DNA from: Rhizobium rhododendri
Lineage (GTDB): Bacteria > Pseudomonadota > Alphaproteobacteria > Rhizobiales > Rhizobiaceae
DNA: 64,000 nucleotides
Assembly (NCBI RefSeq): GCF_007000325.2
Contig: NZ_CP117269.1
Span: 310,001-374,000 of the forward strand
Reading direction: 5' to 3'
This document shows positions 12,554 to 43,480 of the stretch, piece by piece (the stretch's first letter is position 1; each line of letters starts with the position of its first letter). A program made the position numbers and the translations under genes. The notes under the pieces are model-generated. The model was not told where the DNA came from. It ran no database searches and worked only from the letters and a program-made list of their open reading frames with translations.

Positions 12554-12646
12554 TCGCGTCCTCTTCCAAGGACACGGCAACAGAAAACCGATCGCCAAAT
12601 GGCGTCGATGCTTGACAACAATAGGGTTTTTGGAGATGATCGCGAC

Positions 12647-12736
12647 ATTCTTGTGGGTGATCAACCCCGTATCCAAGCATTGAGCTTTGACGGATCGACC
12701 TTGAAAGCGGCAACTTTCGAGGTCGTTTTCGTTTTG
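12647..12736 (+). ncRNA. Probable counter-transcribed RNA controlling repC
   Basis: In the 385-bp repC leader the plus strand carries TTGACA (12612-12617), a 17-bp spacer and GATGAT (12635-12640), then about 90 bp to a strong intrinsic terminator (12697-12736). The transcript would be antisense to the repC mRNA leader, 94-183 nt upstream of the start codon. In repABC plasmids a ctRNA in exactly this place represses RepC and sets incompatibility. The identification rests on position, promoter and terminator, not on sequence comparison. The start point is estimated. Confidence 0.68.
12697..12736 (+). terminator. Intrinsic terminator of the repC antisense RNA
   Basis: GACCTTGAAAG at 12697-12707 pairs with CTTTCGAGGTC at 12714-12724 (11 positions including one G-U pair, 6-nt loop), followed by GTTTTCGTTTT. 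This fits a rho-independent terminator on the plus strand. Confidence 0.78.
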
Positions 12737-22704: not shown

Positions 22705-22705
22705 G

Positions 22706-23977
22706 TCACGGACCGGGCTTTGCGACCGAATGGCGTATCTGCGCGCGGCGAAGGTCATTGACGGCTTGCCGGACCGGATCGGGATAGAGCGAGGAGAAAT
22801 CGAGATCCTTGCGCACGAACACCATGATCTCGGTTCCCTGGTCGACATAGATCGTGGGAGGGATGCTGATTGAATCCTTCAGCGCCATGTTGGCCATCTC
22901 CGCCATGGTCTGGGACAGGGTTTGTTGCGCCTGGCTCTGCGCGTTCGAGCCTGATGAGGAGGATGCAGAACTGCTTGACCCGTCGCTGTTCAAGCCTGCA
23001 ACAAAGGAGGAGACGCCTCCGACCATGCTGAGCACGGCTGCCGCACCGAAGCGCTCGAGATAATGCTTGTCGACGGAGCCCGCGAGCCCCGAACGCCCAA
23101 GGTCGTCCGTTCCATAGGACCCGAGTGCAACGGACGTTCCGTCACTGCGCAGCGCCCGCGTCCAGACGATCAGCACCCGTGTCTGGCCGCGGGCCATACC
23201 GCTTCTATATTCGCCCGTCAGCATGGTTCCTTTCGGCAGCAGGATCCGCCGGCCATCGAAGGAATAGACATCGGTCGAGATTACGGCTCTGACCATGCCG
23301 GGAAGGTCGGACTGGATTGCCGTTTCGAGCACTCCGCGGATCAATGTTCCCTGCGGGATCAGGGCGTCGATGCGATCGTTGCGGGAGGCCGTCACGGTCT
23401 CGACATCCTCGGACCCGACGGCCTGCGCGAACCTGCGGTTCGGGTTCTCGTCGGCACTTGCGCTGTTCCCGGCGCTTTGCGCCGATGAGATGCCAGCAGC
23501 AGACGTGCCACGTTCACCCCTGGTAGATTGGTCGACGACCAGCATGTTCGAGCGGAGCCGCGCCTGGCGCAACTCCTCTTGTTTCTTTGCCCGCTCGGCC
23601 TCATCAGCGGCCCGCCGCGCCGCCGCCTCATCTATGGCCGGTGGTGTAACGACAGGGGCGGCAATGGGAGGTGGCTGGACGACTGCAGGTGCGGGTGGCG
23701 GTGGTGGCGCAAGGACCAGCCTGTTGTCAGTGGGGGCTGGTGGCGGATTATCCGTGTCGAAGTTCAGATGCGCGGCGTGGCTCGCCGTCTTGAACGCTTC
23801 GTTTGTATCCGTCTTCTTCGCTTTATCTGGCTTGATGAAGCTGACATAGCCGGCATAGGCAAGGATCACCAGGGCAACGGAGGCGAGAAGCACCGGGATC
23901 AACCTGCCTCTGCTGGCATCGGGGGACCGCGCAACAGTCTCGGTAATACGCGCCTCTTCTTCGAAATCAATGGCCAT
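22706..23977 (-). CDS. virB10: VirB10-type outer-membrane core/inner-membrane scaffold
   Basis: Start at ATG 23977 after AGGAGA; its first bases overlap virB9. About 423 residues: a short cytoplasmic tail, one TM helix (PVLLASVALVILAYAGYVSF), a proline-rich periplasmic linker (PPPPPAPAVVQPPPIAAP), a heptad-rich stretch with AAARRAADEAERAKKQEELR, and the VirB10 C-terminal barrel domain (LIPQGTLIRGVLETAIQS, then GRRILLPKGTMLTGEYRSG). VirB10 spans both membranes and senses ATP use by VirD4 and VirB11. Confidence 0.94.
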   Translation of the reverse strand: MAIDFEEEARITETVARSPDASRGRLIPVLLASVALVILAYAGYVSFIKPDKAKKTDTNEAFKTASHAAHLNFDTDNPPPAPTDNRLVLAPPPPPAPAVVQPPPIAAPVVTPPAIDEAAARRAADEAERAKKQEELRQARLRSNMLVVDQSTRGERGTSAAGISSAQSAGNSASADENPNRRFAQAVGSEDVETVTASRNDRIDALIPQGTLIRGVLETAIQSDLPGMVRAVISTDVYSFDGRRILLPKGTMLTGEYRSGMARGQTRVLIVWTRALRSDGTSVALGSYGTDDLGRSGLAGSVDKHYLERFGAAAVLSMVGGVSSFVAGLNSDGSSSSASSSSGSNAQSQAQQTLSQTMAEMANMALKDSISIPPTIYVDQGTEIMVFVRKDLDFSSLYPDPVRQAVNDLRRAQIRHSVAKPGP

Positions 23978-24788
23978 GGCTGATCTCCTGCGGCTGGCCG
24001 TCTGACCACTTGTTTTCTTGCGGTGGCGGCGTGCCGATCGGATGCTGCAGGTTGAACACGCAGGTCGCAACAGTGCCTGATCGCAGGGTCCATTGGCGCG
24101 CCACCTTGTCGATGACGATGTAGTCGCCCTCGCGCCGGTAGTTCACGAGAGACTCCCTGCCATCGGACTTGACGGCAAAGAACGCCGGAACTTCACCGCT
24201 GAACTGGAAAAACGTCTTCGTGCCATCGTCGAAAATCGACGTCGGCCTGGCATCGACAGCACCTTTGTATCCATAGTCATAGTTGATCCGGCCGGGGTTT
24301 GCCAAAGCCGCCCGAATGTTGGGCATGGCGGCATTCTGTCGGGCGGCGGCCAAGAGGTTGGCGTCCATGGTGTCGTCGGGATATGAAAAACGCAGCTTAA
24401 TGACCGCCGCTTTGGTGTTGCCGGGTTTGGCGCCGTTCAGGAAGAAGGTGTAGACCCGCTTCGACGTCACGACGTTCATGTTGGTCTGTGCGTCGGGCTG
24501 AAGCGGCTTGATGAACAGGAAGCGCTTGGATTGATCCGGAACGGCCTGCCAGGCCAGGCTGTCGCCCATGGCGACCGTTGCGATCTGTTCGTCGTCATTG
24601 AAGACGATCATGGTCGACACGCCCATCATGCCGGCGAGATAGACGACGTTGTCCTTCTGGAAAGGCACGGTACGAATGCGTGAGTCCGCCCTGACCGATT
24701 GCGGCTGCACTTCCGCCAGAACGACAGGTGAGCGCGCGAGCATGGTGATCGCAGCGATACTGCCGATAAGAAGATGCCGTGTCCTCAT
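23967..24788 (-). CDS. virB9: VirB9-type outer-membrane core component
   Basis: About 273 residues from ATG 24788 (MRTRHLLIGSIAAITMLARS), which overlaps the virB8 stop. A signal peptide ends near VLAEVQPQ. It has the typical N-terminal beta domain (DSRIRTVPFQKDNVVYLAGM) and C-terminal domain (DARPTSIFDDGTKTFFQFSG, then VNYRREGDYIVIDKVARQWT). It forms the periplasmic/outer-membrane ring with VirB7 and VirB10. Confidence 0.93.
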   Translation of the reverse strand: MRTRHLLIGSIAAITMLARSPVVLAEVQPQSVRADSRIRTVPFQKDNVVYLAGMMGVSTMIVFNDDEQIATVAMGDSLAWQAVPDQSKRFLFIKPLQPDAQTNMNVVTSKRVYTFFLNGAKPGNTKAAVIKLRFSYPDDTMDANLLAAARQNAAMPNIRAALANPGRINYDYGYKGAVDARPTSIFDDGTKTFFQFSGEVPAFFAVKSDGRESLVNYRREGDYIVIDKVARQWTLRSGTVATCVFNLQHPIGTPPPQENKWSDGQPQEISHGH

Positions 24789-25516
24789 TGGGCCTCCTCC
24801 CCCGCTGTCACTGTCTCCTGGTCGCGCCGATACTCGGTCACCTGGAACCCGAGGGGATTGTCGAAGCGCCAGTCGTTGCGCATCGGCTCGGACGTATATT
24901 TGAAGCGGACATTGGCGACCCAATGGTCCGTGACAGCAGGCCCTGACGTGCCGGAGCGTGTCGTCGAAAAGCGGACGGCGGCCGTGTTGTCGTTGAGGAA
25001 GATGACACTTTTGACGAACACGGTGATTTCGGTGTTGGGCCCAAAGAGTTTGACAGGGTTGTTGATGTTCGAGCTGGAATAGGTATTTGCGAGATCGGCG
25101 GATGCTTTTCCGGTCGAATAGAGCGAAGCCAAGTCGAAATTGTCCCGCAATTCCTTTGGATCGTAGGTTTCGCGAGCGCGGATGAAGCGTACGATGTTGG
25201 CCCGTGTCACCGCCTCATTCTGCGTGAGATCACCACGCTCCTGCAGCGGTCGGCTGACTTCCACGTAGCCCGTGGTCTTGTCGACCTCGAGGACGACGAC
25301 ATCGAAGGTTTTGAGCGGCAGCAGCATCCAGAGCAGGCCGATCGACGATGCCAAGGCGACGCCGAGCAGCACGGCGACCGTCCTCCAGACGCCGCGAGAC
25401 ATTGCGACCGACCGATAGACCGAGCGCTCCCATCGGTCTCCCTCACTATAATAGCGGGGATCAATCCCTCCAAGTGGCGCGTCCAGCGCCCCCACCCTGA
25501 TGTCGTTCTTACCCAT
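24785..25516 (-). CDS. virB8: VirB8-type bitopic assembly factor
   Basis: A 243-residue protein: a short cytoplasmic N-terminus with YYSEGDRWERSVYRSVAMSR, a TM helix near residue 47 (VAVLLGVALASSIGLLWMLL), then the NTF2-like periplasmic domain (VDKTTGYVEVSRPLQERGDL, VRFIRARETYDPKELRDNFD). GGAGAGAC lies before the ATG. VirB8 nucleates the inner-membrane complex. Confidence 0.92.
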   Translation of the reverse strand: MGKNDIRVGALDAPLGGIDPRYYSEGDRWERSVYRSVAMSRGVWRTVAVLLGVALASSIGLLWMLLPLKTFDVVVLEVDKTTGYVEVSRPLQERGDLTQNEAVTRANIVRFIRARETYDPKELRDNFDLASLYSTGKASADLANTYSSSNINNPVKLFGPNTEITVFVKSVIFLNDNTAAVRFSTTRSGTSGPAVTDHWVANVRFKYTSEPMRNDWRFDNPLGFQVTEYRRDQETVTAGEEAQ

Positions 25517-25536
25517 TCATGTCTCTCCAGGGATGC

Positions 25537-26562
25537 TTATTTGCGGGCATTGGCGGCGGCGGCTCGCACCTGGGCTGCGGCGGGATCACCATCTCCGATC
25601 GTCGCCGGCGCACCGGGCCGCTGGTTGAACAGATATCCGCCAGCCCGAGCGATGCCTTGTCCGGACATGGCAGCCGCTCTCCAAGCGAGCCTCACCGTCG
25701 TTACCGCCGCCGCCGCACCGAGGGCGTCAATTCTCGGTCCCCCGCCGGCAATCGCCAACGCGATCGAGATCGCATGGGTCAAGAGGAAGGCCGTTACGAT
25801 CGACATCAGCATGAAAGGAGCCAGCGTCGTCATGTTGGCCGCACTGGCATCGGCAGTCAGCGCATCCACCCTGGCCTTCAGCAGCGTCAACATAAATCCG
25901 AGGATCACATAGACGATGATCGGCAGAAGCGCGTAACCCGCAAGACTGGCAATCCAGCCATCCACCACCCGCGACGTCAGATTGAACAGCGCGCAACACA
26001 GCACGATCGGGCCGATCGCCAGCAGGATGAACATGGTCATCTTACCGATCATCAGCAGCGTGACGGCGATGGCGCAAAGAATGCAGACGACCGCAAGCAC
26101 GACGATGGCAAGGATGTACATGCCAACGGCTGTGATACCGCCGGCATCCACCATGGTCTTGACGACGGCGATCCCGCTATTCCAGATGTCGGTCAGACCC
26201 TGCGTCACCGACGAACCTGAACTGCCGTCCCCGCCGCAATCGCTGCCGCCGGTCGACTGGCAAACAATGGTCGCCATACCATCTGGCGCTTCCAGCAAGG
26301 GCTTGACGATCAGAGGCTGATAGGTAGCCCATGACACGATCAGGCTGTAGCAGATGAACGCCCGACCAAACCTCCAGACGAACGTCCCGGCGGTCATCTG
26401 GGCGCGCCCGAACAGCATCTCATAACCCCACCAGACGACATAGACAGTAAGCCCTGCTAGGAACAATGGCCCGAGATAGCCGGCAAGCGTCGTGTACATG
26501 GACTGCACGGCGCTGATGCCCATGGCGTCGATCTTGCCGAACAGGATATCGAAGGGGTTCAT
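25537..26562 (-). CDS. virB6: VirB6-type polytopic inner-membrane channel component
   Basis: A 341-residue protein with at least six hydrophobic segments, for example AGYLGPLFLAGLTVYVVWWG, GMYILAIVVLAVVCILCAIA and LLPIIVYVILGFMLTLLKA, and a large periplasmic loop with SGGSDCGGDGSSGSS. The family forms part of the translocation path for DNA through the inner membrane. Start at ATG 26562, 14 bp after the preceding lipoprotein gene. Confidence 0.9.
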   Translation of the reverse strand: MNPFDILFGKIDAMGISAVQSMYTTLAGYLGPLFLAGLTVYVVWWGYEMLFGRAQMTAGTFVWRFGRAFICYSLIVSWATYQPLIVKPLLEAPDGMATIVCQSTGGSDCGGDGSSGSSVTQGLTDIWNSGIAVVKTMVDAGGITAVGMYILAIVVLAVVCILCAIAVTLLMIGKMTMFILLAIGPIVLCCALFNLTSRVVDGWIASLAGYALLPIIVYVILGFMLTLLKARVDALTADASAANMTTLAPFMLMSIVTAFLLTHAISIALAIAGGGPRIDALGAAAAVTTVRLAWRAAAMSGQGIARAGGYLFNQRPGAPATIGDGDPAAAQVRAAAANARK

Positions 26563-26575
26563 GCTCTCGCGCCGC

Positions 26576-26806
26576 TCAAAGCATGGTCACCCCGCTGCGA
26601 TCATCGTTTCCGACAACGCCGCGCTGACGAACCATCGGTCCGCAATGATCGTCGTCGATGCCACCGGCATAGGCCTCAGAGAACAGGATGGAGCCTATCC
26701 CGGCCGAGCACGGCGCCTTGAGTTCCTTATGGCCAGCACATCCGGGCAACGCGGCAAAGGCCGCAACCACGAGCGCGAGGCAAACGGTTTGGCCCACCCG
26801 CGTCAT
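26576..26806 (-). CDS. Small lipoprotein in the VirB7 position
   Basis: About 76 residues. A signal peptide (VGQTVCLALVVAAFAALPGC) ends in a lipobox LPGC, so the mature protein would be lipidated on Cys. AAGGGAG precedes ATGATG at 26809/26806. VirB7 lipoproteins stabilise VirB9 at the outer membrane; the gene order here places the lipoprotein between virB5 and virB6, as in several plasmid systems (eex or TrwH-like). An entry-exclusion lipoprotein is the alternative. Confidence 0.7.
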   Translation of the reverse strand: MTRVGQTVCLALVVAAFAALPGCAGHKELKAPCSAGIGSILFSEAYAGGIDDDHCGPMVRQRGVVGNDDRSGVTML

Positions 26807-26816
26807 CATCTCCCTT

Positions 26817-27557
26817 TCACTGCCCAACGAAGGAGACCTCATTCGGATGGTAGGTCATGAATGCAGATGTTGCCGCCTCCGCTGCCAGCTGGCGCATCTG
26901 TTCGGCGTTCAGAGCAGCGTTTCCGGCGTTGACAGCCCCGACGAGTTCGTTGACCGTTTGTGCGGTCTGGGTCTGTACTTGCGAGTTTTGATCGATGGAG
27001 CCCTTGATGTCGGGTGCCGATCCGATTTGTCCCTGGACAGCCTGAAACGCGGACGATCGCTGCTGTGCGCTGTTCTGCGTTCCCGCAATCGACGCCGTCA
27101 GCGCTGTCGCCGTGTTCACCAACCCCTGATAGGCCTTGTCGCCGCGCGTCAAATTTGTGCTTGCTGTTTCACCCGACAAGGACCTGACGAGATTGAGACC
27201 GTTCAGGATCGTTGCGGCCGTATTGCCGAAAGAACCAAGATTGCCCCAGGACATCTGACCGCTGAGCAATGAGGAAAAATCGGGTGCATTGCCGATCGAA
27301 AACCCGGAGCCGAGGGCAGCACCGGCGATTTCGCTGGTCGACCGGTTTCCGGTGACCGCTGCAAGTGTCCTGTTTACCGTTTGCAGGATATCGCTGTTCG
27401 ACGACATGATCTGCGCGGTGTTCGACGCGGTCTTCGTTGCCTGGGATAGGGTCGCCTCATCAATGACGGGGACCTGCGCAAAAACACTGCCGCAGGGAAC
27501 CGCCGCCATGAGCAGAGCCAAGGCGGGCTTGGACAGGATATTGGATGGCTTCATCAT
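26817..27557 (-). CDS. VirB5/TrwJ-like secreted pilus protein, copy 1
   Basis: About 246 residues (MMKPSNILSKPALALLMAAV; the frame opens at 27575). A cleavable signal ends near GSVFAQVPV. The mature part is helical, rich in Gln, Ser, Thr and Ala with heptad character (QTQTAQTVNELVGAVNAGN) and ends AFMTYHPNEVSFVGQ. VirB5 proteins sit at the pilus tip and contact recipients. The C-terminal MTY-P-xVSF ending and the mature start AQVPV are shared with the next gene upstream, marking tandem paralogues. Confidence 0.75.
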   Translation of the reverse strand: MMKPSNILSKPALALLMAAVPCGSVFAQVPVIDEATLSQATKTASNTAQIMSSNSDILQTVNRTLAAVTGNRSTSEIAGAALGSGFSIGNAPDFSSLLSGQMSWGNLGSFGNTAATILNGLNLVRSLSGETASTNLTRGDKAYQGLVNTATALTASIAGTQNSAQQRSSAFQAVQGQIGSAPDIKGSIDQNSQVQTQTAQTVNELVGAVNAGNAALNAEQMRQLAAEAATSAFMTYHPNEVSFVGQ

Positions 27558-27567
27558 CTGAACTCTC

Positions 27568-28221
27568 CTACTCATTGCCGTTGATGAACGATACCGAGCC
27601 CGGATCGTAGGTCATGACTTTCGATGCAGCGCTTTCCGCTGCTGCCTGGTCGACCAGTCGCTGGTTTCGCAATCGAACCGTTGTCGTCGCCGACTGGATC
27701 GCCTGGTTCCAGATCTGGGCGCTCGACAGGCGCGCGGTGGTGTTCTGGTCGAAGGCGCCCTGCAGGGAGTTGGCATTGCCGATTGTCGCTGCCTGGTTTT
27801 GAAGTGTCGAGGTATTGGCGCTGATCGCGGCGGCCGTTGCGGCGAGCGCGCTCACCACCTGGCCGATATTCCTGGTTTTCAGGGCCTGGACGCTTGAACC
27901 GGTGGCCAGAAGGATCGACAGGTCGCTAGTGCCAATTGCAGTCCCGGAAAGCGGTGACCCGGAGATGGCCGCACCTGAGATCGGTGGGATGCCGGCAAGA
28001 TCCCCCTTCGCCGTGACACTCGACGTGACACCTCGCGACGGTGCCACGGAAGACTGTTTGAAGGTCCGTGCGCGTTGCACGCAGACGGCCGTCTTCGTCT
28101 CTTCGGTCGTTCGCGCGGCGTCGTTGACCGGCACCTGTGCCATCGTCGGCGAGATCCCCGACATCGCCACCAGTACCACCAGGCACATAGAAGCGCTGAG
28201 ATTTCGGTTCCGGACGCTCAT
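27568..28221 (-). CDS. VirB5/TrwJ-like secreted protein, copy 2
   Basis: A 217-residue protein with a signal peptide (LVVLVAMSGISPTMAQVPV). The mature N-terminus AQVPVNDAARTTEETKTA and C-terminus KVMTYDPGSVSFINGNE parallel copy 1, but the centre differs (SGAAISGSPLSGTAIGTS) and it has a Cys near residue 47. The start overlaps the virB4 stop. The two may be alternative pilus-tip subunits, or one may be an assembly accessory. Confidence 0.7.
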   Translation of the reverse strand: MSVRNRNLSASMCLVVLVAMSGISPTMAQVPVNDAARTTEETKTAVCVQRARTFKQSSVAPSRGVTSSVTAKGDLAGIPPISGAAISGSPLSGTAIGTSDLSILLATGSSVQALKTRNIGQVVSALAATAAAISANTSTLQNQAATIGNANSLQGAFDQNTTARLSSAQIWNQAIQSATTTVRLRNQRLVDQAAAESAASKVMTYDPGSVSFINGNE

Positions 28222-30674
28222 CTCATATCACCTCTTGCGTCCGGAGGATTGTCAGGCTCCTGGCTCCAGCCACAGTAATAGGGCAGCCAGAGCTCCGGGG
28301 CGTCGCCGTAGCGACGACGCAGACGCTCGCATTCGGCGACCGTTTCAGCCCTGCCGGACAGCACCTTGATGAAGTCCGGGAGTGCGGAGAGATCAAGCCG
28401 CGCGATAAGGCTGTCGTGGTCGTGCTTGACCAGGAACTGACGGCTTGTCGACGCGGTCGACCTCACCCACTCAAATTCGGTTTCCGAAAGTCCAAAACCT
28501 TTGACATAGCTCTCCCGATCCGCCTTCGGGTTGGGGAAGAAGATGGTCGTCGGGCTTTGCTCGAGCAGCGTATGGGCGATCCGCGATGTGGTGATATCGC
28601 GTGCAGATTGCGTGCCAATTCCGACAATACCGTTCTTCTTGCGGATGGTCTTCAGCTGGTCGTTGATGAAGGCGCCTGCCCGGTCGTCGCTCAGGAGTTT
28701 CCAGCCTTCGTCAACGAAGAGCATCATCGGCCGCTCGCCATCCAGCATCTGGCCGATGCGAAAGAAGATATAGCCGAGCGCCACTGTGCGGACTTCCGGA
28801 TCATCGAGGACGGCGGTCAGATCAAAGCCGAAGATGCCGCGCTCGCCATCCCAAAGATCCACCGTGTTGTTAAACAACCATCCCCGGGTATCGCACCAGG
28901 CCTCGAAACGCGACGCCAGATCGTCGCGCCCGGCGGCCTCGCCCCCTCGCAGCAGATGGACGACGTCCGAGAACAGGCGCTCCCGGACCGGCACGCTGAA
29001 GATCTGCTCGACCGCTCGGTAGAGGATTTTCTCCTGCTCGGCCGACAGCTTTTCGGCATCATCCTTTGGGCGAACGAGATAGCTGAGGAGGTCATAGACG
29101 AACGCCCTGTTATCAGGACTGTCTGGAAGTTGCAGCGGATTGAAACCGGTTGGAACGCCGGGTTGCAGCACCTCGTACTGACCACCGCAGGCACGAATGA
29201 AGACCTCCCCACCACGATCCTTGTCGAAAAAGGCGCATCGAGGTTGGGGTCTTGCCCGCATTGCCTGCGACAGCAAAAACAGGAGCGCCACGGTCTTTCC
29301 CGAACCCGTCGGGCCGGTGACGATGAAATTGCCGACCTCACCCTTGTGGAAGTTGAAGAAATAGGGGGTCATCGACGTCGTCTGCAGCAAGGAAACAGCC
29401 GGTCCCCAGTGATTTCCACGGGGTTTTCCAAGAGCAAAATTATGAAACGACGCCAGTCCACAAAAATTGCGCGACGAAATCAGCGCGCGACGTGCGATAT
29501 AGGAGAAGTTGCCCGGTAGCTGGGCGTAAAAGACCGGCTCGCTGTTCAGATCCTCGCGCACGACCACCATACCGGCATTCTGCAATTCCTTGGTGATGGC
29601 CTGGGCGCCGGCCTCGGTCTCCTTGATCGAAGCCCCTAACGCCATCACCGACAGATGGTGATAGCCCATGACGGCGCGGCCGTTGACCAACTCATCCCTG
29701 GCAATCGAGATAGCACTTCCAAGGCTCGTGCCACGCTCATCCGAAACACTGATCTGACGCTCTATCCGATCCATCTCCGACAGGACTGGCGCACGATCTT
29801 GCAAGGCGAAACTTTGCGACAGGATGAACTCGCCTGGGACCTTCAGCAGCCCGTCGATCATGCCAGCCGCGGTGTAGGGTGGGTATTCGCGGATCGACAA
29901 CATTGCGCCGAACCGGGTTTCGATGTCGCTGGCGCCGCGCATTTCGAAGACACGGCGGCCGAAGGTGATACGGCGGGTCGGCAGATATTGGTCGAGAGGC
30001 ATGCGCGGCAAGGCCATGGCGACTGGCTCGCCGCCGTTAAGCAGCATCGCCAGGAACTCGAGCGGCTCGGACGCCACGTGCCGCTCCCGCGCCACCACCT
30101 TCAGGACCCGGACGCCGTAATGTTCCATTCCCTTGACGATGTTGGCGACATGCTCGCGCAGCTCCTGGCGGGCCTCCAGATCCATCGCCCGCTCGGATAC
30201 ACCGGACGCCTTGCGCAAGCGCGATAAGATCTCGTCCGCCAGTCCGACCTTGCCCTGGAAGCCCCGCCGGATGATCGTCAGGTAGAGCTCGTTCAAATAC
30301 ATGCTGTTGTCTTTTAGGCTCAGCATGTAACGATCATTGAGAGCCCTGCAGAATGGGATATCGAACGTACCACCGAGTTGAGGGGGAATACGACGCCGCA
30401 CGATGTGGGCGTAGGCTGCAAAACGGCTGTCTGCGAGGGCCCGAACCAGCGTGTTGCGCGCGGTCGCCTCGACATCGATGATTTGCTGATCGGCGGTCTG
30501 GTGACAGAAGCCATCGATCTTGATGATCGTCAGCAGCATTCCGTCCTTGGTTCGCAGTGTTTCCTCGTCGACATGCCTGAGGTAGGGGACATGCGCCGAG
30601 ATCGGCTTTTCCCGGGCGCTTTCAGCTCCGAACCGAAGATCCTTGCGGATGGACTTTTGCATCGCCGCCCCCAT
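28218..30674 (-). CDS. virB4: VirB4-type ATPase
   Basis: About 818 residues; ATG 30674 with GGGAG upstream is preferred over the TTG at 30689. It has the N-terminal CagE/VirB4 domain (VPYLRHVDEETLRTKDGMLL) and a C-terminal RecA-like domain with Walker A VTGPTGSGKTVALLFLLS, Walker B RPMMLFVDEGWKLL and the motif GIVGIGTQSARDI. VirB4 is the universal energising ATPase that helps extract pilin and drives transfer. It overlaps the next gene by four bases, so translation is coupled. Confidence 0.95.
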   Translation of the reverse strand: MGAAMQKSIRKDLRFGAESAREKPISAHVPYLRHVDEETLRTKDGMLLTIIKIDGFCHQTADQQIIDVEATARNTLVRALADSRFAAYAHIVRRRIPPQLGGTFDIPFCRALNDRYMLSLKDNSMYLNELYLTIIRRGFQGKVGLADEILSRLRKASGVSERAMDLEARQELREHVANIVKGMEHYGVRVLKVVARERHVASEPLEFLAMLLNGGEPVAMALPRMPLDQYLPTRRITFGRRVFEMRGASDIETRFGAMLSIREYPPYTAAGMIDGLLKVPGEFILSQSFALQDRAPVLSEMDRIERQISVSDERGTSLGSAISIARDELVNGRAVMGYHHLSVMALGASIKETEAGAQAITKELQNAGMVVVREDLNSEPVFYAQLPGNFSYIARRALISSRNFCGLASFHNFALGKPRGNHWGPAVSLLQTTSMTPYFFNFHKGEVGNFIVTGPTGSGKTVALLFLLSQAMRARPQPRCAFFDKDRGGEVFIRACGGQYEVLQPGVPTGFNPLQLPDSPDNRAFVYDLLSYLVRPKDDAEKLSAEQEKILYRAVEQIFSVPVRERLFSDVVHLLRGGEAAGRDDLASRFEAWCDTRGWLFNNTVDLWDGERGIFGFDLTAVLDDPEVRTVALGYIFFRIGQMLDGERPMMLFVDEGWKLLSDDRAGAFINDQLKTIRKKNGIVGIGTQSARDITTSRIAHTLLEQSPTTIFFPNPKADRESYVKGFGLSETEFEWVRSTASTSRQFLVKHDHDSLIARLDLSALPDFIKVLSGRAETVAECERLRRRYGDAPELWLPYYCGWSQEPDNPPDARGDMR

Positions 30675-30692
30675 CAGGTTGGCTCCCAAGAA

Positions 30693-30989
30693 TTACGGTT
30701 CATAGGAATTACCGCCCCAGAAGTGACGGTTCTTCGTCCAGGGGCATTTGGCGATCCGCACGAGAGCGACGTTCGCCAGGTGCGGATCGCGAACCGTGAT
30801 CACGTAAGCCGCGGCATGCAGGGGCAGGAAGAGAAGGAACATCGCAAGGTTCTTCGTATTGAGGAACGTCATGACGACAATCATCAGTTCGCCGACGAAG
30901 ACGCCGATCGGCACGCCCCAGAACATTCTTGGCCGCGTGAGACCGAGAACCAGCGGCGCCACTTCCGCCCTTACCTCTGCCTCGCTCAT
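30693..30989 (-). CDS. virB3: VirB3-type inner-membrane protein
   Basis: About 98 residues from ATG 30989, which overlaps the virB2 stop. It has LTRPRMFWGVPIGVFVGELM and a second hydrophobic run LAMFLLFLPLHAAAYVITV, then DPHLANVALVRIAKCPWTKN, the usual VirB3 tail. It works next to VirB4 in pilus assembly. Confidence 0.9.
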   Translation of the reverse strand: MSEAEVRAEVAPLVLGLTRPRMFWGVPIGVFVGELMIVVMTFLNTKNLAMFLLFLPLHAAAYVITVRDPHLANVALVRIAKCPWTKNRHFWGGNSYEP

Positions 30990-31342
30990 CAGCCACCCAA
31001 TCCGGAAGACATGGACTGCACGAGCTGCGAGCCGCCAAAGATGAAGGCGATGCCAACGATGATGGAAAAGCACCAACTCCAGGGGATACGGCTCGTCAAC
31101 GCCATGTAGCCGACGGCAGCACAGGCGATGGTCGCCGCTGTCGTCGCGAACGTTCCGGTCATGAAATTGAGGAGTGTCGTGAACACCGAATTGATCGGCT
31201 GGAAGATATCGCCGGCGGCATAGGCTAGTTCGACATTGCCCATCATCACAGCGCCGGCGACCCCTGCCAACACCAAGATGTTTCCGTTGATCCGTCCGGT
31301 CGACATCACCGATCGGGCGAGATTGTATAGCCTTGTCTTCAT
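30989..31342 (-). CDS. virB2: VirB2-type major pilin
   Basis: About 117 residues from ATG 31342 after GAAAGGAG. A long signal (NGNILVLAGVAGAVMMGN) ends near ELAYAAGDIF, followed by a mature pilin with two hydrophobic helices (VFTTLLNFMTGTFATTAATI and WCFSIIVGIAFIFGGSQLV). It is processed and assembled into the conjugative pilus. Confidence 0.88.
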   Translation of the reverse strand: MKTRLYNLARSVMSTGRINGNILVLAGVAGAVMMGNVELAYAAGDIFQPINSVFTTLLNFMTGTFATTAATIACAAVGYMALTSRIPWSWCFSIIVGIAFIFGGSQLVQSMSSGLGG

Positions 31343-31364
31343 CTGGGGCTCCTTTCTTTCCTGA

Positions 31365-32072
31365 CTACTGCACGTACAGAACCGAGCCGCCGATCCAGTC
31401 GTGATCGCCGGCTTGCAGTCTGGTTTGATGGATGGGGGTTGGCTGCTCGGAGGCTGGCGTTTGCGCCAGCAGGTCCACGCCGGCAGCAGCAACGGCTCGA
31501 CTGCCCGCAGCGGCGGCCTTGGCGGCCCGCTTGCCGCCCTTCAGGTAATTGTCAAAGCCGTAATAGGCGTTGGTAACCAGTGCCGTGTAGGAGACGGTCT
31601 CGGCAATATCCGGCACGCCCCCTGCGGCAACGACACGACCCTCTCCGGCATTATAGGCCGCAACCACGAGCATAATGTTGCCTCCAAAGGCCGCCGTCAG
31701 ATCCTTGAGGTAGCTGACGCCGCCCCGAATATTCTCGGCCGCGTCGCAAATATCCGTCACCTGATAGCGCGCGGCGGTCCTTGGCATGAGCTGCATGGGA
31801 CCGCGCGCTCCCGCGGTCGAATTGACGTGGGCGCCGAAGCCGGACTCCTGATCGGCAATTGCCAGTGCCAACCTGGCGTCGACCCCCTGGCGCGACGTTT
31901 CCCTGGTGATGAGCTGGCGAATGGTCTTTGCATCCACCGCACCGTCAGCGCAGTCGGAAGAGACATTGACTGTGAACGCGCCCGAACTGGGCGATGCATC
32001 GTTGGCCAAAGCCAGACAGGGAAAGACGAGGTTCACGACAACGATCGCAGTGCGCATGGGGGCTATGGACAT
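31365..32072 (-). CDS. virB1: VirB1-type lytic transglycosylase
   Basis: About 235 residues from ATG 32072. After a signal peptide (IVVVNLVFPCLALANDA) comes an SLT domain: catalytic Glu in LAIADQESGFGAHVNSTAGA, then GPMQLMPRTAARYQV and VVAAYNAGEGRVVAAGGVP. It cuts peptidoglycan locally so that the channel can be built. It is the promoter-proximal gene of the virB operon. The C-terminus has an Ala-rich low-complexity stretch. Confidence 0.92.
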   Translation of the reverse strand: MSIAPMRTAIVVVNLVFPCLALANDASPSSGAFTVNVSSDCADGAVDAKTIRQLITRETSRQGVDARLALAIADQESGFGAHVNSTAGARGPMQLMPRTAARYQVTDICDAAENIRGGVSYLKDLTAAFGGNIMLVVAAYNAGEGRVVAAGGVPDIAETVSYTALVTNAYYGFDNYLKGGKRAAKAAAAGSRAVAAAGVDLLAQTPASEQPTPIHQTRLQAGDHDWIGGSVLYVQ

Positions 32073-32153
32073 TTGCGTTTCCCGAGTTATAAGTGCATAT
32101 ATATAAAAACATGATAACAACGCAAGTGCCTTTGTAAAATGCCAGGAGCGCAG
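32073..32153. promoter_or_regulatory. Divergent promoter region between virB1 and the trbM-like operon
   Basis: An 81-bp AT-rich gap (TATATATAAAAACATGATAA core) separates the oppositely oriented operons and must hold both promoters. On the minus strand TTGCGT followed 17 bp later by ATATAT is a possible promoter for virB1. Joint control of channel and accessory genes is likely. Confidence 0.5.
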
Positions 32154-38258: not shown

Positions 38259-41200
38259 CTACCGCTGACGCGGCTTGTGCGAATGTCTTTGCGTTTCCTT
38301 CTGCATCTTAGCGATGGCGTCCTTCTCTGCCAGAAGTTCTTGCTGGGCTTGCCGTTGGCGCTCGATTTCAGGCGACTGGGTCACGTCGGCTGGAATGGGC
38401 GTCGACGGGTTTTGGTCGATAGCCTGTTTGGCCCGCGCAGCCGCATTTGCTTCCGCCTGCGTTCTATATGCGTGGTCGTCTCCGCCGCCGTCGATCGGCC
38501 GCTCGTTGGTGGCTGCGGTGCGTCCGGCTTGGCGCACCTCCCGCTCGGCCTCGACATCGGTGCGCTCGCGTATTGTCTGAAGGGCGATCGCGATTTCTAT
38601 GTCCGTCTTTTGACCTGGCCCTTGGACTCTGGAGCCCTCGGCAAGGCCAAGTCGACTTTCTTCGCCAGCCTTCTCTTGTCGCCGACGTTCCTCCACTTTT
38701 TCCCGCGCGGCCGTCAATTTGTCCTGTAGCTCGGGATTGCCAATTTTGAAGCCATGTTCGGCCGCAAGCTCGACAGCGAGGGCCTTCTCGCGCTCGGATC
38801 CGTTGACCGTGATCTTGTCCCACCTCCTTGCCGCCTCGCGCATCGCCGCCAGCATCGATTCACGATCGCGATCGGCCGGCTTTATTTTCTCGCTCTCGAC
38901 AATCGGCGCCTTGGGATCAGTGAGGGGCGGCTGTGGGGTCGCCCGTCCCACCGCTTGGGTTTGAGCTTGAGCCTTGACTTGCCCCTCGATACTGGCCTCA
39001 TCGGTACTCACGCCAGCCGAATTGCCGCCCCGATCAGCGCGGTCCCTTGTCATTTGTGCTTGGGTAGCGGCCAGCTTGTCCTGCAGCTCGGGGTTGGCAA
39101 TCTTAAATCCGTATTCTGCAGCAAGCTCGACGACTAGCGCCTTGTAGCTTTCAGTGCCATTGATGGTCAGCGCCCCCCATTTGCGGGACGCAACCTGCAT
39201 CGCGGCCAAAACCACCTGCCGATCCTTCCAATCGGCAATCTCCACCCTGTCGCCGTGATCGGTGAAAGCGACACTGCCGGCCCTGCCGCGATCGTTGCGA
39301 TGACTATAGCGGATTGTCTCGCCGTGCTCTTCGGCCACGAATTCGCGGAACTCATGTCTGACAGGTGCCACGAAGGTCTCGCCTTGGACCAAACCCCGTT
39401 TTTTCTCAATGCGCTCCTGCGTCGCCAGCATATCCTGCTGGGCCTCTCGAAGCTTACCGTGGAGCTTTTCGATCTGGGGCTGCTGTTCTGGTGGAAGATG
39501 CTGTTTGATCACCTCCATCTGGGCGTCCATCTCCGCAAATGAAGCAGTCATTACCTTCAGGTTTGCCATGTCGTCTGTCTCCTTTGGCGTTCCGCCTTTC
39601 TGATATGAAATGGATTGATACTCCTCGAACTCCGGCGCCATCGCACGCACCGCCATCTCACCGCGGTCACGGAAATGGAGGACGCTTGCCGTTACCACTT
39701 CCGCCGGCACCAACGGGCGCATCCTGTCGGCAAGGTCTCGCGCGACGACGAAGTGGTCGTTACCGCCACCCAGTGCGGGTTGACGGCGCGCCGGCGTGAT
39801 CCGATGCATCTCCGTCGGCCGAACATCGACAAACCCGAGCGTTCCGCCATCCCGACGTGCCAATTCCGCGGCAGCCGAGAGATCGCGGGTGAAGAGTGGC
39901 ACCGACGACCGCGTTCCAGGTCGCTCCGCCCGGTAGAGCCGCAACACGCCTGGATCTGGTGCAAATTGCGTAGGCGACCGCAAAGCCATGGCCGCCACGT
40001 CGCTCCAGCCGCTGGCTGCGGCTACAGCATGACGCTTTCCTTCTTCCCGTATCGGAATGTGGACAGCACCCATCCTTGCCGCCTCGACGCGCCGACGCAC
40101 GTTTTGCGATGCGACGCCTCTTTCCACGCGCTGGATGTCCTTCAGCTTATACCCGGGAGGGTTTGCCCGCTCGAACCGGCTCATCGCGTCCATGGGAATG
40201 TTTCGCTCACGCGCCTCTTCGGCCAGAGTTTTGCGCCAGCGCCTGAAATCCTGGATCCGCGGGTGAAGACGCTGGCCGGCGTCCGAGAGCATCTTGATGG
40301 CGGCATGAACATGAAGATGCTGCCGATCCCCGTGAAGCACGAAGGCATAGCGATGCCCGGCGAATTCCCTGGCAAGCGTTGCACGCACGGCATCGACGAA
40401 CCGATCCCTTGGCGTCCCCGGCTTGGCGCTAAAAATGACGTGGGCGACGTCACGGCGCTCTTGCGAACGGAGGTCGCGCTTCCAGTCCTTCGCCTCCTCC
40501 AGCGAACTTGCACCGGCACCGACCACCACATCCTCGCCAAACGATCCGTCCTTGTTCAGGCGAACCGCGCGCACGGCGTGGTGCATTCCCTTGCGAACCT
40601 GAGCGAGGTAGCGACTAACGCCTTCCACTCCGTGCGCAAAGCCATAGAGTTCTACTTGTCCGCCAGCGCCGAACGACACTTGCAGCAGCCTGTCGAGCTT
40701 GCTCAGGGATTTTCGGTTGTCGTAGATACGCTGCGCGCTTGCTTCACCGGGATGGGGACGGGCTGCAGCGCTGAGAACCACTTCAACAGATCGTCCCTTC
40801 CCTTTAGCATCGGGCTCGCTCCGCCATGCGATGCGGTGGCCAGGCAGCGCCTGTTTCAACGCCTCGCCCACAGCCTCATCTGAGTGCGATCGTACGAACA
40901 ATCCCAGCCGCAGCACATCCTTTGACGGCTGACGCCCGTATTCTTCTGCCCATTCGTCGGCAAGCGCCTGGATCCAAGATGCGCCTGCAACCTGTTCACC
41001 GGTCTCGCGTTCGACGGTCAATTCGCCATCACGGCTCTGATAGGCAAGAAGTTTGCGGACACGGGCACTTCCGGCAGCAAAACTCACCAGCTTGACCACT
41101 GCCGGCTGTGACCCTGCCGCAACGCCCAGGCGCTCGGCCAGGCCGGTAGTCCAGATCGGCGCGGCTCTCGCAGCACCTTCGCCGATATTTGAGCCAGGAG

Positions 41201-41516
41201 CAGCCTTTGCCCTCGCAGGTGAGCTGGCATGTCCCGCCGCCAAGGTGCCCAACCCTCCGCCTCCCCCGCTAACGCGGCGCTTGCGTCCTTCATCCTCCAA
41301 CTCCATCGGTACGGGCATGAACCCCGTACGCGGCCTGCTGCCCGTATAGGGCGTCCCATCGCCCCTGCGGCGCTTGCGCTTTGGTCCGGGCTTCTGGCGG
41401 ATTTTGCGGATAGCAAGGCCATCGAAATCCTGATCCTGGAAAGTGGCGGACGCACGCCGCTTCCGCCGCCGCTCGATATCGTCCAGGACACCCAGGAAAG
41501 CATCGACATCAAACAT
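38259..41516 (-). CDS. MOBP-like conjugative relaxase with C-terminal LPD7-like repeats
   Basis: About 1085 residues from ATG 41516, which overlaps the mobC stop. A basic N-terminal segment (KIRQKPGPKRKRRRGDG) precedes the relaxase domain: LLAYQSRDGELTVERETGEQ with a candidate catalytic Tyr, HVIFSAKPGTPRDRFVDAVR, and the three-His metal motif LHGDRQHLHVHAAIKML. The C-terminal third has two related repeats (RKWGALTINGTESYKALVVE and RRWDKITVNGSEREKALAVE, each followed by ELAAE-GFKI-NPELQDKL), resembling LPD7-type domains, plus long coiled coils. It should nick oriT and pilot the strand through VirD4. There is no helicase domain, unlike TraA. Confidence 0.88.
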   Translation of the reverse strand: MFDVDAFLGVLDDIERRRKRRASATFQDQDFDGLAIRKIRQKPGPKRKRRRGDGTPYTGSRPRTGFMPVPMELEDEGRKRRVSGGGGGLGTLAAGHASSPARAKAAPGSNIGEGAARAAPIWTTGLAERLGVAAGSQPAVVKLVSFAAGSARVRKLLAYQSRDGELTVERETGEQVAGASWIQALADEWAEEYGRQPSKDVLRLGLFVRSHSDEAVGEALKQALPGHRIAWRSEPDAKGKGRSVEVVLSAAARPHPGEASAQRIYDNRKSLSKLDRLLQVSFGAGGQVELYGFAHGVEGVSRYLAQVRKGMHHAVRAVRLNKDGSFGEDVVVGAGASSLEEAKDWKRDLRSQERRDVAHVIFSAKPGTPRDRFVDAVRATLAREFAGHRYAFVLHGDRQHLHVHAAIKMLSDAGQRLHPRIQDFRRWRKTLAEEARERNIPMDAMSRFERANPPGYKLKDIQRVERGVASQNVRRRVEAARMGAVHIPIREEGKRHAVAAASGWSDVAAMALRSPTQFAPDPGVLRLYRAERPGTRSSVPLFTRDLSAAAELARRDGGTLGFVDVRPTEMHRITPARRQPALGGGNDHFVVARDLADRMRPLVPAEVVTASVLHFRDRGEMAVRAMAPEFEEYQSISYQKGGTPKETDDMANLKVMTASFAEMDAQMEVIKQHLPPEQQPQIEKLHGKLREAQQDMLATQERIEKKRGLVQGETFVAPVRHEFREFVAEEHGETIRYSHRNDRGRAGSVAFTDHGDRVEIADWKDRQVVLAAMQVASRKWGALTINGTESYKALVVELAAEYGFKIANPELQDKLAATQAQMTRDRADRGGNSAGVSTDEASIEGQVKAQAQTQAVGRATPQPPLTDPKAPIVESEKIKPADRDRESMLAAMREAARRWDKITVNGSEREKALAVELAAEHGFKIGNPELQDKLTAAREKVEERRRQEKAGEESRLGLAEGSRVQGPGQKTDIEIAIALQTIRERTDVEAEREVRQAGRTAATNERPIDGGGDDHAYRTQAEANAAARAKQAIDQNPSTPIPADVTQSPEIERQRQAQQELLAEKDAIAKMQKETQRHSHKPRQR

Positions 41517-41916
41517 GACTGCCCACCAGGCGCCGCGCACGCGCGCGGCTGCTTGCACGCAACGCGTCAATCTCCCGCTCGTGCTGTACGACAAGCCTGG
41601 CAAGCCGTTCCACACCGCCATGCAGATGTTCATATCCGGGCACGCGACCACTGTTCAGTGCCCGCGCAATCTGGTTGAGGTTAACCCCCACTTTCCGAAG
41701 CTGAACCACGGTCGCCTTGAGCCGCTGCGCCACCTCGCCCTCAAAGGTTGGCCCAAAGCCTCCGGCTTCGCGCGCCAATCGCCGCAGCACTTCGCTGGTG
41801 GGGAGTGCAGCCTCTTCCGCGAACTTCGTCAGCGCTGCAAATTCCGCTTCCGACAATCTCACGCGCACCGATCTGTTCCGGCTTGGCCGCCTATGTGCAA
41901 TCGAGGTCTTGCTCAT
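41509..41916 (-). CDS. mobC: MobC-like relaxosome accessory protein
   Basis: About 135 residues from ATG 41916 after GAGAAGGG. The N-terminal half is a ribbon-helix-helix-like DNA-binding region (RNRSVRVRLSEAEFAALTKF, then SEVLRRLAREAGG), followed by the MobC signature VVQLRKVGVNLNQIARALNS. MobC proteins bind oriT and open the nick site for the relaxase. Its stop overlaps the relaxase start, so the two are coupled. Transcription runs away from the oriT candidate. Confidence 0.85.
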   Translation of the reverse strand: MSKTSIAHRRPSRNRSVRVRLSEAEFAALTKFAEEAALPTSEVLRRLAREAGGFGPTFEGEVAQRLKATVVQLRKVGVNLNQIARALNSGRVPGYEHLHGGVERLARLVVQHEREIDALRASSRARARRLVGSHV

Positions 41917-41982
41917 CCCTTCTCGCTCCGGTCGCCCTTGGCGACTGCCGGACGAGCCCGTCAGCCCATCGGGCACATGCCG

Positions 41983-42012
41983 GTTTTCGTACACCGAAAA
42001 CTGCTATCCTGC
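41983..42012 (+). other. oriT: Candidate oriT core: inverted repeat and nick-like site
   Basis: GTTTTCG (41983-41989) and CGAAAAC (41995-42001) form a perfect 7-bp inverted repeat with a 5-bp loop. Ten bases after it lies TATCCTG/C (42005-42012), the nick consensus YATCCTG/Y of RP4/VirD2-type relaxases; in RP4 the repeat-to-nick distance is also about 8 bases. The site lies 67 bp upstream of mobC, divergent from parA, where oriT is expected. The nick position after 42011 is inferred. Confidence 0.7.
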
Positions 42013-42057
42013 CAACCATATAATTCCCTTTTATCGTTCATATACAAGCGCCTATGC

Positions 42058-42183
42058 AACTTGCCTCACTTTGCACACTTCTAGCAGTGGCTCCACTTGT
42101 GGCACCTTCTCCACCTGTTTCCCTCACGCCACTTCTCTCACTTCCGGTCCGCACGCCACTTGTGTCAGTCCCGTCAGTTCGAG
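42058..42183. repeat. Degenerate 9-bp tandem array next to oriT
   Basis: CACTT or CACYT begins at 42067, 42076, 42094, 42103, 42112, 42130, 42139 and 42157, all separated by multiples of 9 bp; CAGT variants fall on the same register at 42085, 42166 and 42175, and AACTT at 42058. That makes about 14 units of consensus CACTTnnnn. It looks like a binding array for a protein of the relaxosome (MobC, ParA partner or the small DNA-binding protein at 43142) rather than coding sequence. Confidence 0.65.
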
Positions 42184-42198
42184 GACGATCACCCCTTT

Positions 42199-42218
42199 CG
42201 CCACTCAAGGAAGTGGCG
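42199..42218. repeat. Perfect dyad CGCCACT-CAAGGA-AGTGGCG
   Basis: Seven-bp arms (42199-42205 and 42212-42218) flank a 6-bp centre. The arm contains the same CCACT word as the neighbouring 9-bp array, so it may be a paired binding site for the same protein. Confidence 0.6.
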
Positions 42219-42368
42219 GATCTCGTCAAAGCTCTTGAACGACCGGAAGCGGGGTCACGGAGACAACTGCCCCTACTTAGACCCCTCGTCTGCTCCGCAA
42301 ACTTGCAGCACTGCTGGTCGTGCTCCCACGCCTTCCACTGGCTTAGGCGCGGGGGCTGCGTTCAGTGG

Positions 42369-42388
42369 TGCAAGCGAGCAGGCTTGCA
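42369..42388. promoter_or_regulatory. Perfect dyad upstream of the ParA-like gene
   Basis: TGCAAGC (42369-42375) and GCTTGCA (42382-42388) with a 6-bp centre, 50 bp before the parA-like start. It is a plausible autoregulatory operator; no T-tract follows, so it is not a terminator. Confidence 0.5.
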
Positions 42389-42438
42389 AAAGCGATCGCC
42401 TATCTGTATTTGCTATATAACTAGTAATTCACCGCGAC

Positions 42439-43125
42439 ATGAAGATCCTGAAAATGACCATTATCGCTTTGGCAAATTCCAAGGGCGGCGTCGGCAAATC
42501 GACCCTGTGCCTCCTGATTGCCTCCGAACTCGCGGAGAACGGTGCCAGTGTTCTCGTCATCGATGCCGATCCCCAGCAGTCCTGTCGTCAATGGGTAGAC
42601 CGCTGCAACAGCGTCGGCACGCTTCCATCGTCATTGTGGGTCACCACAGCATCCTCGCCGCATGACCTGAAATTCGCCCTCACGACGGCGACCGCATCCA
42701 TCGTCCTCATCGACGTCCAGGGTTCGATCAACGATCTCCTGATTGCCGCTATTGTCGCAAGCGACATCACGCTCGTGCCGGCCAAGGCCAACGTGATGGA
42801 AATGATCGAGACCGTAAAGCTTTTCGAATGGGCGAAAGCCAGCCTCAAACGCGCGCCTCTCAAGCTCCTTCTCAATCGCGTCGAAGGCATCGACACCAGG
42901 ACGACAGCATTCCAGGACGCTGTCCAGATGATCCGTGACAACAAGCTTCCAGCCCTTCCCACCTTCGTTCGCGCCCGAAAAGTCTACGAGCAGTTTTCGA
43001 AAGAGGCCGGTTCGCTTGCGCGGATCGGCAATGACCCTGGCAAAGCCGATCAGGTCGCCAAGGCACGCGCCAACATCGTCAGCGTCATCGCCGACATTAC
43101 GAAGGCCATAGGCGAAGCTGAATGA
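42439..43125 (+). CDS. ParA/VirC1-like ATPase
   Basis: A 228-residue protein with a deviant Walker A (ANSKGGVGKSTLCLLIASEL), the Asp of Walker A' in VLVIDADPQQSCRQWVDR, Walker B IVLIDVQGSIND and ITLVPAKANVMEMIETVKLF. The second Met (MTIIALANSKGG) may be the true start. VirC1 binds near the T-DNA border and recruits the relaxosome to the pole; with oriT and the relaxase next door, the same job is likely here, rather than plasmid partition. Its partner follows 16 bp downstream. Confidence 0.82.
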   Translation: MKILKMTIIALANSKGGVGKSTLCLLIASELAENGASVLVIDADPQQSCRQWVDRCNSVGTLPSSLWVTTASSPHDLKFALTTATASIVLIDVQGSINDLLIAAIVASDITLVPAKANVMEMIETVKLFEWAKASLKRAPLKLLLNRVEGIDTRTTAFQDAVQMIRDNKLPALPTFVRARKVYEQFSKEAGSLARIGNDPGKADQVAKARANIVSVIADITKAIGEAE

Positions 43126-43141
43126 GCAAACGGAGGAGACC

Positions 43142-43480
43142 TTGAGCGAAATTCCGCCACTGCAGAAATCGCGTCGGAACCTGTCGGATCTGGATTCCCT
43201 GATCGCCGACTCCATCGGGAAAATGGCTTCCTATGGAGAAATGCATGGACCACCGAAGTCCAACGCGGCGGTGGGCGAGCCGCAATCTTTTGAGCCGCCA
43301 CCGCAAACGATCCAAGCCCATCCTAACACGGTCGATGACAAGCCGGAGCGGTTTCAGATATGTCTCTCCGGCACGGTGATCATCGCTACAAAGCTGGAGG
43401 CGCTGAAACGGAAGACGACGGCCGGTGAGATCACTGAACGGGCGCTCAGGTCGTATCTGGGGATGCCTCCGAAGATCTGA
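43142..43480 (+). CDS. Small VirC2-like or RHH-like protein
   Basis: A 112-residue protein with a TTG start at 43142 after GGAGGAGA. The N-terminal part is polar and Pro-rich (SKSNAAVGEPQ-type). The C-terminal 45 residues (RFQICLSGTVIIATKLEALK, then TAGEITERALRSYLG) resemble a ribbon-helix-helix domain, as in VirC2. It is probably the DNA-binding partner of the ParA-like ATPase and a candidate binder of the 9-bp array. Confidence 0.6.
   Translation: MSEIPPLQKSRRNLSDLDSLIADSIGKMASYGEMHGPPKSNAAVGEPQSFEPPPQTIQAHPNTVDDKPERFQICLSGTVIIATKLEALKRKTTAGEITERALRSYLGMPPKI

Follow-up and report, generated by a model that had tools for sequence, protein, structure and literature searches.

ParA-like ATPases such as VirC1, StbB and TraL adjoin many transfer origins, and both the DNA that these proteins see and the reason why they do so are only partly understood. 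In R388, the MOB and ParA-like operons diverge from oriT with repeats lying between oriT and the operon, and these repeats (stbDRs; two sets of five 9-bp repeats with 2-bp spacing, an 11-bp step) are read by StbA, the DNA-binding protein of the operon, while the ParA-like StbB shows polar localisation (described for stb in PMC3098194). VirC1 and VirC2 likewise pair a ParA-like protein with one that binds DNA, at a site adjoining the target of the relaxase (PMC8716806), in their case the short element overdrive. SmpO of the pWBG749 plasmids is a ribbon-helix-helix (RHH) relaxosome accessory factor with two sites per oriT and an oriT specificity that switches with a single residue (PMC8136818), and ParR of NAH7, placed over the oriT region, provides a precedent (PMC12421886). 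A small ParA, an RHH partner and repeats 5' of the operon are also the ingredients of type Ib partition systems, e.g. TP228 parFGH and pSM19035 delta/omega (PMC5016525, PMC9499535, PMC5389482).

For the rhizobia, a traA/mobC/parA arrangement with avhD4/avhB has been published for the ‘tumorigenes’ Ti plasmids and placed in MOBP0 clade IVc (PMC10410297), and the order parA-mobC-mobZ is given for pSmeLPU88b (PMC13274422). In the available parts of these accounts of type IV rhizobial regions no oriT, repeat array or RHH partner is named, and the terms oriT, centromere, ribbon-helix-helix and direct repeat do not occur in the main text of the former (PMC10410297). The locus analysed here has the same genes in the same order as these regions, and its relaxase is that of the same plasmids. 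In a functional mapping, Giusti (2012) reportedly assigned the oriT of a relative to a 278-bp stretch separating the divergent parA and mobC, and this mapping may cover parts of the oriT presented below.

The locus shares features with all of these systems and departs from each. As in R388, repeats stand between a transfer origin and a ParA-like operon, but the register here is a contiguous 9 bp and the ATPase gene comes first with an RHH partner after it, whereas in stb the DNA-binder precedes the ATPase; the likeness is one of layout. A long array replaces the short overdrive of VirC1/VirC2 and the two sites of SmpO, and relative to type Ib partition the differences are the 9-bp register, the position beside oriT and the presence of a repABC replicon already on the plasmid. 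The oriT itself is ordinary, well supported and of the familiar MOBP type; given that we recognised no description of the 9-bp array in the parts of the open-access literature available to us, the novelty lies in the union of this oriT with a co-varying array, which is the less expected part. Our main reading, to which we give a probability of about three in four, is that a MOBP oriT and a ParA-RHH module are joined here, the latter docking the relaxosome in the manner of VirC1/VirC2 and Stb. For an unusual group of Ti plasmids, the locus offers a transfer-origin candidate at base level, and its nick site stays constant while the adjoining array diverges. Moreover, the DNA of this system is a long phased array, the code of which changes among natural variants along with the protein that probably reads it, and consequently the question of how ParA systems meet DNA becomes testable with natural proteins and natural arrays alone.

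Replicon and transfer genes

The window is a stretch of 64,000 nucleotides of Rhizobium rhododendri (NZ_CP117269.1, positions 310,001 to 374,000), carried by contig C3 of a genome of four contigs and 5.96 Mb. Among the matches listed, its relaxase shares 99.5% identity with that of pTiL51_94 and 93% with those of other ‘tumorigenes’-type Ti plasmids, and near-identical genes of this transfer region are present in pTiL51_94. Judged by relaxase identity, the replicon is most likely a Ti plasmid of the ‘tumorigenes’ clade, and a second relaxase-fold frame (409 aa, at C3:181842) would fit VirD2. A RepC-like replication gene within the window (11252-12676, minus strand; NCBIfam RepABC_RepC 198.7 bits, cut-off 150) is the second on this contig, besides repC at C3:2455, and two such genes agree with the proposal that these plasmids have a cointegrate history (PMC10410297).

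The gene mobC (41509..41916, minus strand; start as annotated in the near-identical record NZ_CP072145) encodes a NikA-like relaxosome accessory protein that exceeds the Pfam cut-offs for both NikA-like (34.8 bits) and MobC (31.8 bits) families. It is followed by a relaxase with an LPD7 domain (38259..41516, minus strand; Pfam Relaxase 47 bits, LPD7 100 bits), whose start at 41516 we infer from the mobC overlap annotated in a related locus (L005); the Relaxase match is above its Pfam cut-off and the NCBIfam MobP1 match under it (60.9 against 200). Genes for a VirB/VirD4-type secretion system, comprising a coupling protein and VirB11, 10, 9, 8, 6, 5, 4, 3 and 1, were recognised with Pfam at 19274..32120 (minus strand), and a frame inside this cluster (27568-28221) had no match in the Pfam scan. 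Close to its C-terminus, the VirD4-like coupling protein (19277-21649, minus strand) matches the BID domain weakly (25.5 bits against a cut-off of 29.5). The type IV rhizobial Dtr gene set, i.e. relaxase, mobC, divergent parA and MPF-T genes, is present, and by gene content the region belongs with the type IV rhizobial (MOBP0) transfer systems, the MOBP0 clade assignment being taken from PMC10410297.

Hairpin and presumed nick region of the probable oriT

With gene starts as annotated in NZ_CP072145, the gap between mobC and parA spans 41917-42453. On its plus strand, the arms GTTTTCG (41983..41989) and CGAAAAC (41995..42001) enclose the loop TACAC, and a TGC spacer separates the right arm from the nick region TATCCTG/C (42005..42012), in which the presumed cut at 42011/42012 is placed by analogy with the MOBP nick consensus (C/T)ATCCTG(C/T) and its adjacent inverted repeat, as described in PMC3772185. 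The left arm is recognisable from the sequence itself, from folding and from relatives, the right arm from the sequence and from covariation in relatives, and the nick region from sequence and conservation. Relatives also reveal a conserved element 5' of the hairpin, GGGCAC (41971..41976, plus strand), of which at least GGCAC is retained in 26 of 27 rows, with AGCAC in the remaining locus (L017). The arm in the window extends to nine pairs if one G.T pair is allowed, the best hairpins of 27 relatives have between 6 and 11 pairs, and as single-stranded DNA the hairpin folds with -6.3 kcal/mol (z -4.2). A short, conserved hairpin-like GCCC...GGGC (41957-41975) on the mobC leader side, 5' of the oriT hairpin, recurs in relatives and may represent an operator or else belong to oriT.

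Thus the window contains a MOBP nick consensus, an inverted repeat immediately 5' of it, and an adjacent relaxase and accessory gene. Transfer origins of the RP4/VirD2 type are likewise built from a hairpin followed by TATCCTG/C, but RP4 has a 16-bp repeat (PMC3772185) where the arms here are shorter, and a TraK site where the long 9-bp array stands here. We regard it as highly probable that 41971-42014 forms the core of the oriT of a type IV rhizobial (MOBP0) conjugative plasmid; the position and strand of the nick within it (42011/42012, plus) are presumed from the published consensus. The original prediction had named the 7-bp dyad and TATCCTG/C with exactly these letters, had set dyad, nick and array in the gap between the divergent mobC-relaxase and parA genes, which the gap coordinates bear out, and had read them as an oriT, a reading now strengthened by the rarity of the dyad (0.05 expected) and by conservation beside mobC. 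Its distance of ten bases between the repeat and TATCCTG/C is right for the presumed nick (42001 to 42011) but not for the heptamer, which begins 3 bases past the arm.

A hairpin with TATCCTG might also arise by chance, or serve as a regulatory structure of the mobC leader, and TATCCTGCCA alone is indeed not rare, with 17 occurrences in the genome against 3 for a reversed-pattern control; because the motif is common by itself, the case for an oriT rests on context and conservation. Among 17 YATCCTGY sites in the window, only that at 42005 is preceded by a perfect dyad of at least 7 bp, and perfect dyads of at least 7 bp with a loop of 3-8, ending 0-8 nt before YATCCTGY, arose 10 times in total in 200 dinucleotide shuffles, i.e. 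about 0.05 per window. A promoter and terminator scan of 41900-42460 found neither, nor any terminator-like site, and conservation emerged from both directions of search, by relaxase and by pattern. A chance or regulatory origin of the combination therefore seems very remote.

Regarding conservation, the original prediction had proposed a comparison of related relaxase loci, and in this comparison TATCCTGCCA adjoins mobC in 16 of 18 plasmid loci and in all 10 genome-contig loci (the former taken from 40 listed among 717 records matched by relaxase similarity, with three more added later; the latter including one record identical to L002). The two plasmid loci that lack it are L019, a partial relaxase match in which mobC was not found, and L016 (Methylocystis), where a ten-pair hairpin at about position 2066 of the locus precedes TTTCCTGCC in place of TATCCTGCC, possibly a variant nick site. 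Further afield, L047 and L048 have a strong hairpin of 10-11 pairs directly 5' of TATCCTGCC, and L046 has TATCCTGCC with a poor hairpin in an ungapped search. From the other direction, the pattern GGGCAC, 20-32 bases, CTATCCTGCCA occurs at 9 sites in 8 of 394 genomes of the family, the window's own included, against 2 sites for a reversed-pattern control, and these sites neighbour a relaxase homologue (9/9), a recognisable mobC (8/9) and parA (7/9), although several of these loci carry the same arrays, at 90% identity, as the set from the relaxase search. The sole match of a shorter-gap pattern in 397 genomes (L036; its reversed control also gave 1) had none of these genes and was set aside.

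Only rows containing CTATCCTGCCA entered the array and hairpin comparisons; that this motif does not vary in the hairpin alignment (A4) therefore follows from the selection, and the fair figures are 16/18, 10/10 and those from the distant loci. Alignment A4 holds 16 of 22 distinct hairpin sequences, with L018 pairing one base out of register; L007/L010, L024, L027, L028, L040 and L045 were excluded because the loop or arm length of their hairpins differs. Across A4, 86.3% of the cells of a ten-pair hairpin are paired, as opposed to 78.9% when columns are shuffled (none of 500 shuffles reaches the observed share), and sliding the hairpin by 1-3 columns lowers pairing to 30-54%. Two-sided pair changes number 8 cells versus 2.2 in shuffles, yet a slide of -1 gives 7, and the 4 pairs with a two-sided change are reached by 31 of 500 shuffles, such that these counts are weak when taken alone. 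Arm letters vary by locus, e.g. GGAC/GTCC in L026 and GCAGAAATC/GATTTCTGC in L018, and the dyad is kept throughout; a dyad maintained under changing letters is what one would expect of a relaxase hairpin whose cut site is fixed.

A 9-bp register between oriT and parA

Written nine bases per line, much of the stretch 42050-42395 aligns CACTT, CAGTG, AAGTG and CACTG in one column, delimiting an array (about 42050..42395, plus strand) with the motif (C/A)A(C/G)T(T/G) and space for about 38 units, a putative binding site of the RHH protein. Lags of 9, 18 and 27 surpass other lags in 72-nt segments starting from 42040 to about 42340; one segment within mobC (41800-41871) is also high at these lags (0.36 versus 0.23). 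The phased array of the original prediction is thus real, but its end at 42218 was drawn too short, as the register runs on to about 42395; similarly, the array-side dyad that it noted (42199-42218, CGCCACT/AGTGGCG) is present, but lies within the array and resembles units in opposite orientation. The array fills most of the gap up to parA, and it probably belongs to the ParA-RHH pair and not to the relaxase.

Averaged over lags 9, 18 and 27, z comes to 4.4 in the window, and 20 of 27 non-redundant loci score 3 or more (300 shuffles each), whereas among 400 control stretches of equal length, drawn from the window and the loci and given 60 shuffles each, none reaches 3 at period 9 and 6 do so at some period of 5-15. 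Seven loci fall below 3, namely L010 (2.7), L026 (2.0), L027 (1.7), L014, L022, L037 and L018, with a best period of 17 in L014, L022 and L037 and of 7 in L018. In a pooled cyclic model of 21 loci, period 9 leads periods 7, 8, 10 and 11 by about 690 log units, a result that describes rather than tests the register, since L014, L018, L022, L037, L026 and L027 had been dropped beforehand. Past their first units the arrays align poorly between clades, and the register persists.

Some of the loci with other periods have features of their own. In L018 (Ochrobactrum), the gap beside mobC has a 7-bp register (7.5 at lag 7) with the same nick site adjoining, and its RHH-like protein is a different one with a weak Pfam RHH_10 match. 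L014, L022 and L037 combine a 17-bp register with an RHH variant whose strand reads RLQVK, and the 17-bp consensus of L022 and L037 contains CT and AAG half-sites.

A period of nine, being a multiple of three, could point to a functionless relic or product of coding sequence or of simple tandem duplication, and the gaps of L003 and L004, which differ by exactly 9 bases, would suit such an origin. Nonetheless, whichever of the six frames is taken, at most 7 of 21 loci keep it open over 240 nt, on which ground a coding origin of the register was rejected; most loci show no elevation at lags 12 and 15, and letters drift between clades while the register stays. We therefore consider such a relic very unlikely, and treat the periodicity as a probable protein-binding array.

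The company that the array keeps varies among the loci. None of the four distant loci (L016, L046, L047, L048) has a 9-bp array like that of the window, although lag 9 reaches z 3.6, among other lags, in one stretch of L047. In L027, parA and the RHH gene are present and the overall 9-bp signal is weak (1.7). L028 and L044 keep an array of the GGC class (3.4 and 3.7), and parA was not found in the stretch examined; the genome of L044 has a second locus, L045, with parA, an RHH gene and the same array class, and it is possible that these serve the L044 array in trans.

The ParA-RHH pair and a probable code of the array

The gene parA (42454..43125, plus strand; start as annotated in NZ_CP072145) encodes a ParA-family ATPase that PDB and Pfam comparisons identify as ParF- and VirC1-like. 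It is small (223 aa), without an N-terminal HTH, and aligns from residue 1 with 5u1g/4dzz; its closest PDB relatives are ParA/ParF partition proteins, and it scores 105 against NCBIfam ParA_partition (under the cut-off of 180) and, for VirC1, 37.8 bits in Pfam (cut-off 24) and 37.7 in NCBIfam (cut-off 313). The next gene (43142..43480, plus strand; one copy in the genome) encodes a 112-aa protein with a C-terminal RHH domain, the probable reader of the array, for which 35 homologues were found. The window protein itself had no match in Pfam or NCBIfam scans, nor did a profile of its close homologues (A3) match any PDB chain, while the wider profile A5, built from 17 partner C-termini with members and boundaries picked by eye, matches solved CopG-family RHH proteins over the strand and both helices (best E 2.2e-9). 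A single-chain structural model has a mean pLDDT of 65 (76-86 in the two helices), and a Foldseek search with it returned no useful match; given this model and this null result, the RHH assignment rests on profile A5. VirC2 is itself an RHH protein, and scans of the locus proteins with Pfam and NCBIfam gave no match to the VirC2 family.

Per-clade models of the array yielded two motif classes, A(C/G)T and GGC/GCC, which were scored by motif pairs 9, 18 and 27 bases apart relative to shuffles. The class follows the third residue of the RHH strand, which we take to correspond to the base-contacting strand position of Arc. Where this residue is Gln (RFQI, RLQI), A(C/G)T is the stronger class in 12 of 12 loci (z 10.5-24.0 in eleven, 1.3 in L010), and where it is Arg or Lys (RFRI, RFRV, PLKL), GGC/GCC is the stronger in 8 of 8 (z 5.8-18.7). 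Some loci are mixed, with GGC also in L006 (z 7.6) and L005 (4.1) and A(C/G)T also in L040 (8.1), and L017, with the strand KWGVQL, has neither class in spite of a strong 9-bp signal. L039 (Gln) and L040 (Lys) are sisters in the ParA tree (support 98/98, L039 on a flagged long branch) and differ in both residue and array class, from which it follows that protein and array have switched together at least twice, a co-variation that comprises two switches only and in which motif classes and strand position were picked after looking.

That the RHH protein encoded after parA reads the array is, in view of this co-variation, likely. A different candidate for the reader is MobC (NikA-like) or the relaxase complex. 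MobC/NikA-type proteins bind near oriT in known systems, and the MobC strand residue does differ between the two main clades (Arg or Cys versus His); but it is His in both L039 and L040, whose arrays differ in class as the RHH residue goes from Gln to Lys, so that MobC does not track the class in this pair and was judged the less likely reader. L026 and L041, moreover, have mobC and relaxase, yet parA and RHH matches were looked for there and not found, and their array signal is weak (2.0 and 1.9). Reading by MobC or the relaxase complex accordingly appears improbable.

With the RHH protein as the likely reader, the relaxase and MobC would recognise the hairpin and cut the plus strand after TATCCTG (42011/42012), and the cut strand would leave with its parA side in front, by way of the VirB/VirD4-type channel whose genes lie at 19-32 kb; the same lead is described for stb of R388 and its relatives (PMC3098194). 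RHH dimers would occupy the 9-bp array in register and recruit the ParA/VirC1-like ATPase, ParA and RHH together might hold or steer the relaxosome to the channel, and RHH protein on the array would probably also repress the parA operon.

A role of ParA, RHH and array mainly in transfer rather than in inheritance is, to our minds, slightly the better-favoured option. Alternatively, the array could chiefly be an inheritance centromere, with parA, the RHH gene and the array forming a type Ib partition cassette that merely stands beside oriT and has no part in transfer. A small ParA without HTH, an RHH protein (by profile A5) and repeats 5' of the operon are all found here, type Ib systems place a repeat centromere 5' of a small ParA and RHH operon (PMC5016525), the omega protein recognises 7-bp repeats whichever way they point (PMC9499535), and the nearest PDB relatives of this ParA are partition proteins. 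Against this, the replicon has its own repC at C3:2455 and the second repC-like gene in the window. Systems of the repABC kind carry their own partition genes. Furthermore, parA accompanies mobC-relaxase in most loci seen, and its product also exceeds the Pfam cut-off for VirC1. We therefore hold a purely partitioning array to be doubtful, though a serious contender, and prefer a docking role in transfer.

A more far-reaching and speculative proposal is that oriT and centromere are one composite site, in which the RHH protein would read a register of some 38 units of nine bases, with a single residue setting the code (Gln for A(C/G)T, Arg/Lys for GGC/GCC), and which relaxosomes ParA delivers to the channel would depend on this private code. 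If so, plasmids with the same TATCCTGCCA nick site would be insulated from each other by their arrays, and whole arrays would change code together with the RHH protein.

Beyond the RHH gene on the same strand, a 463-aa protein (46954-48342, plus) combines a HEPN match above the cut-off with a nucleotidyltransferase match (Pfam), and is possibly a toxin-antitoxin-like or defence element.
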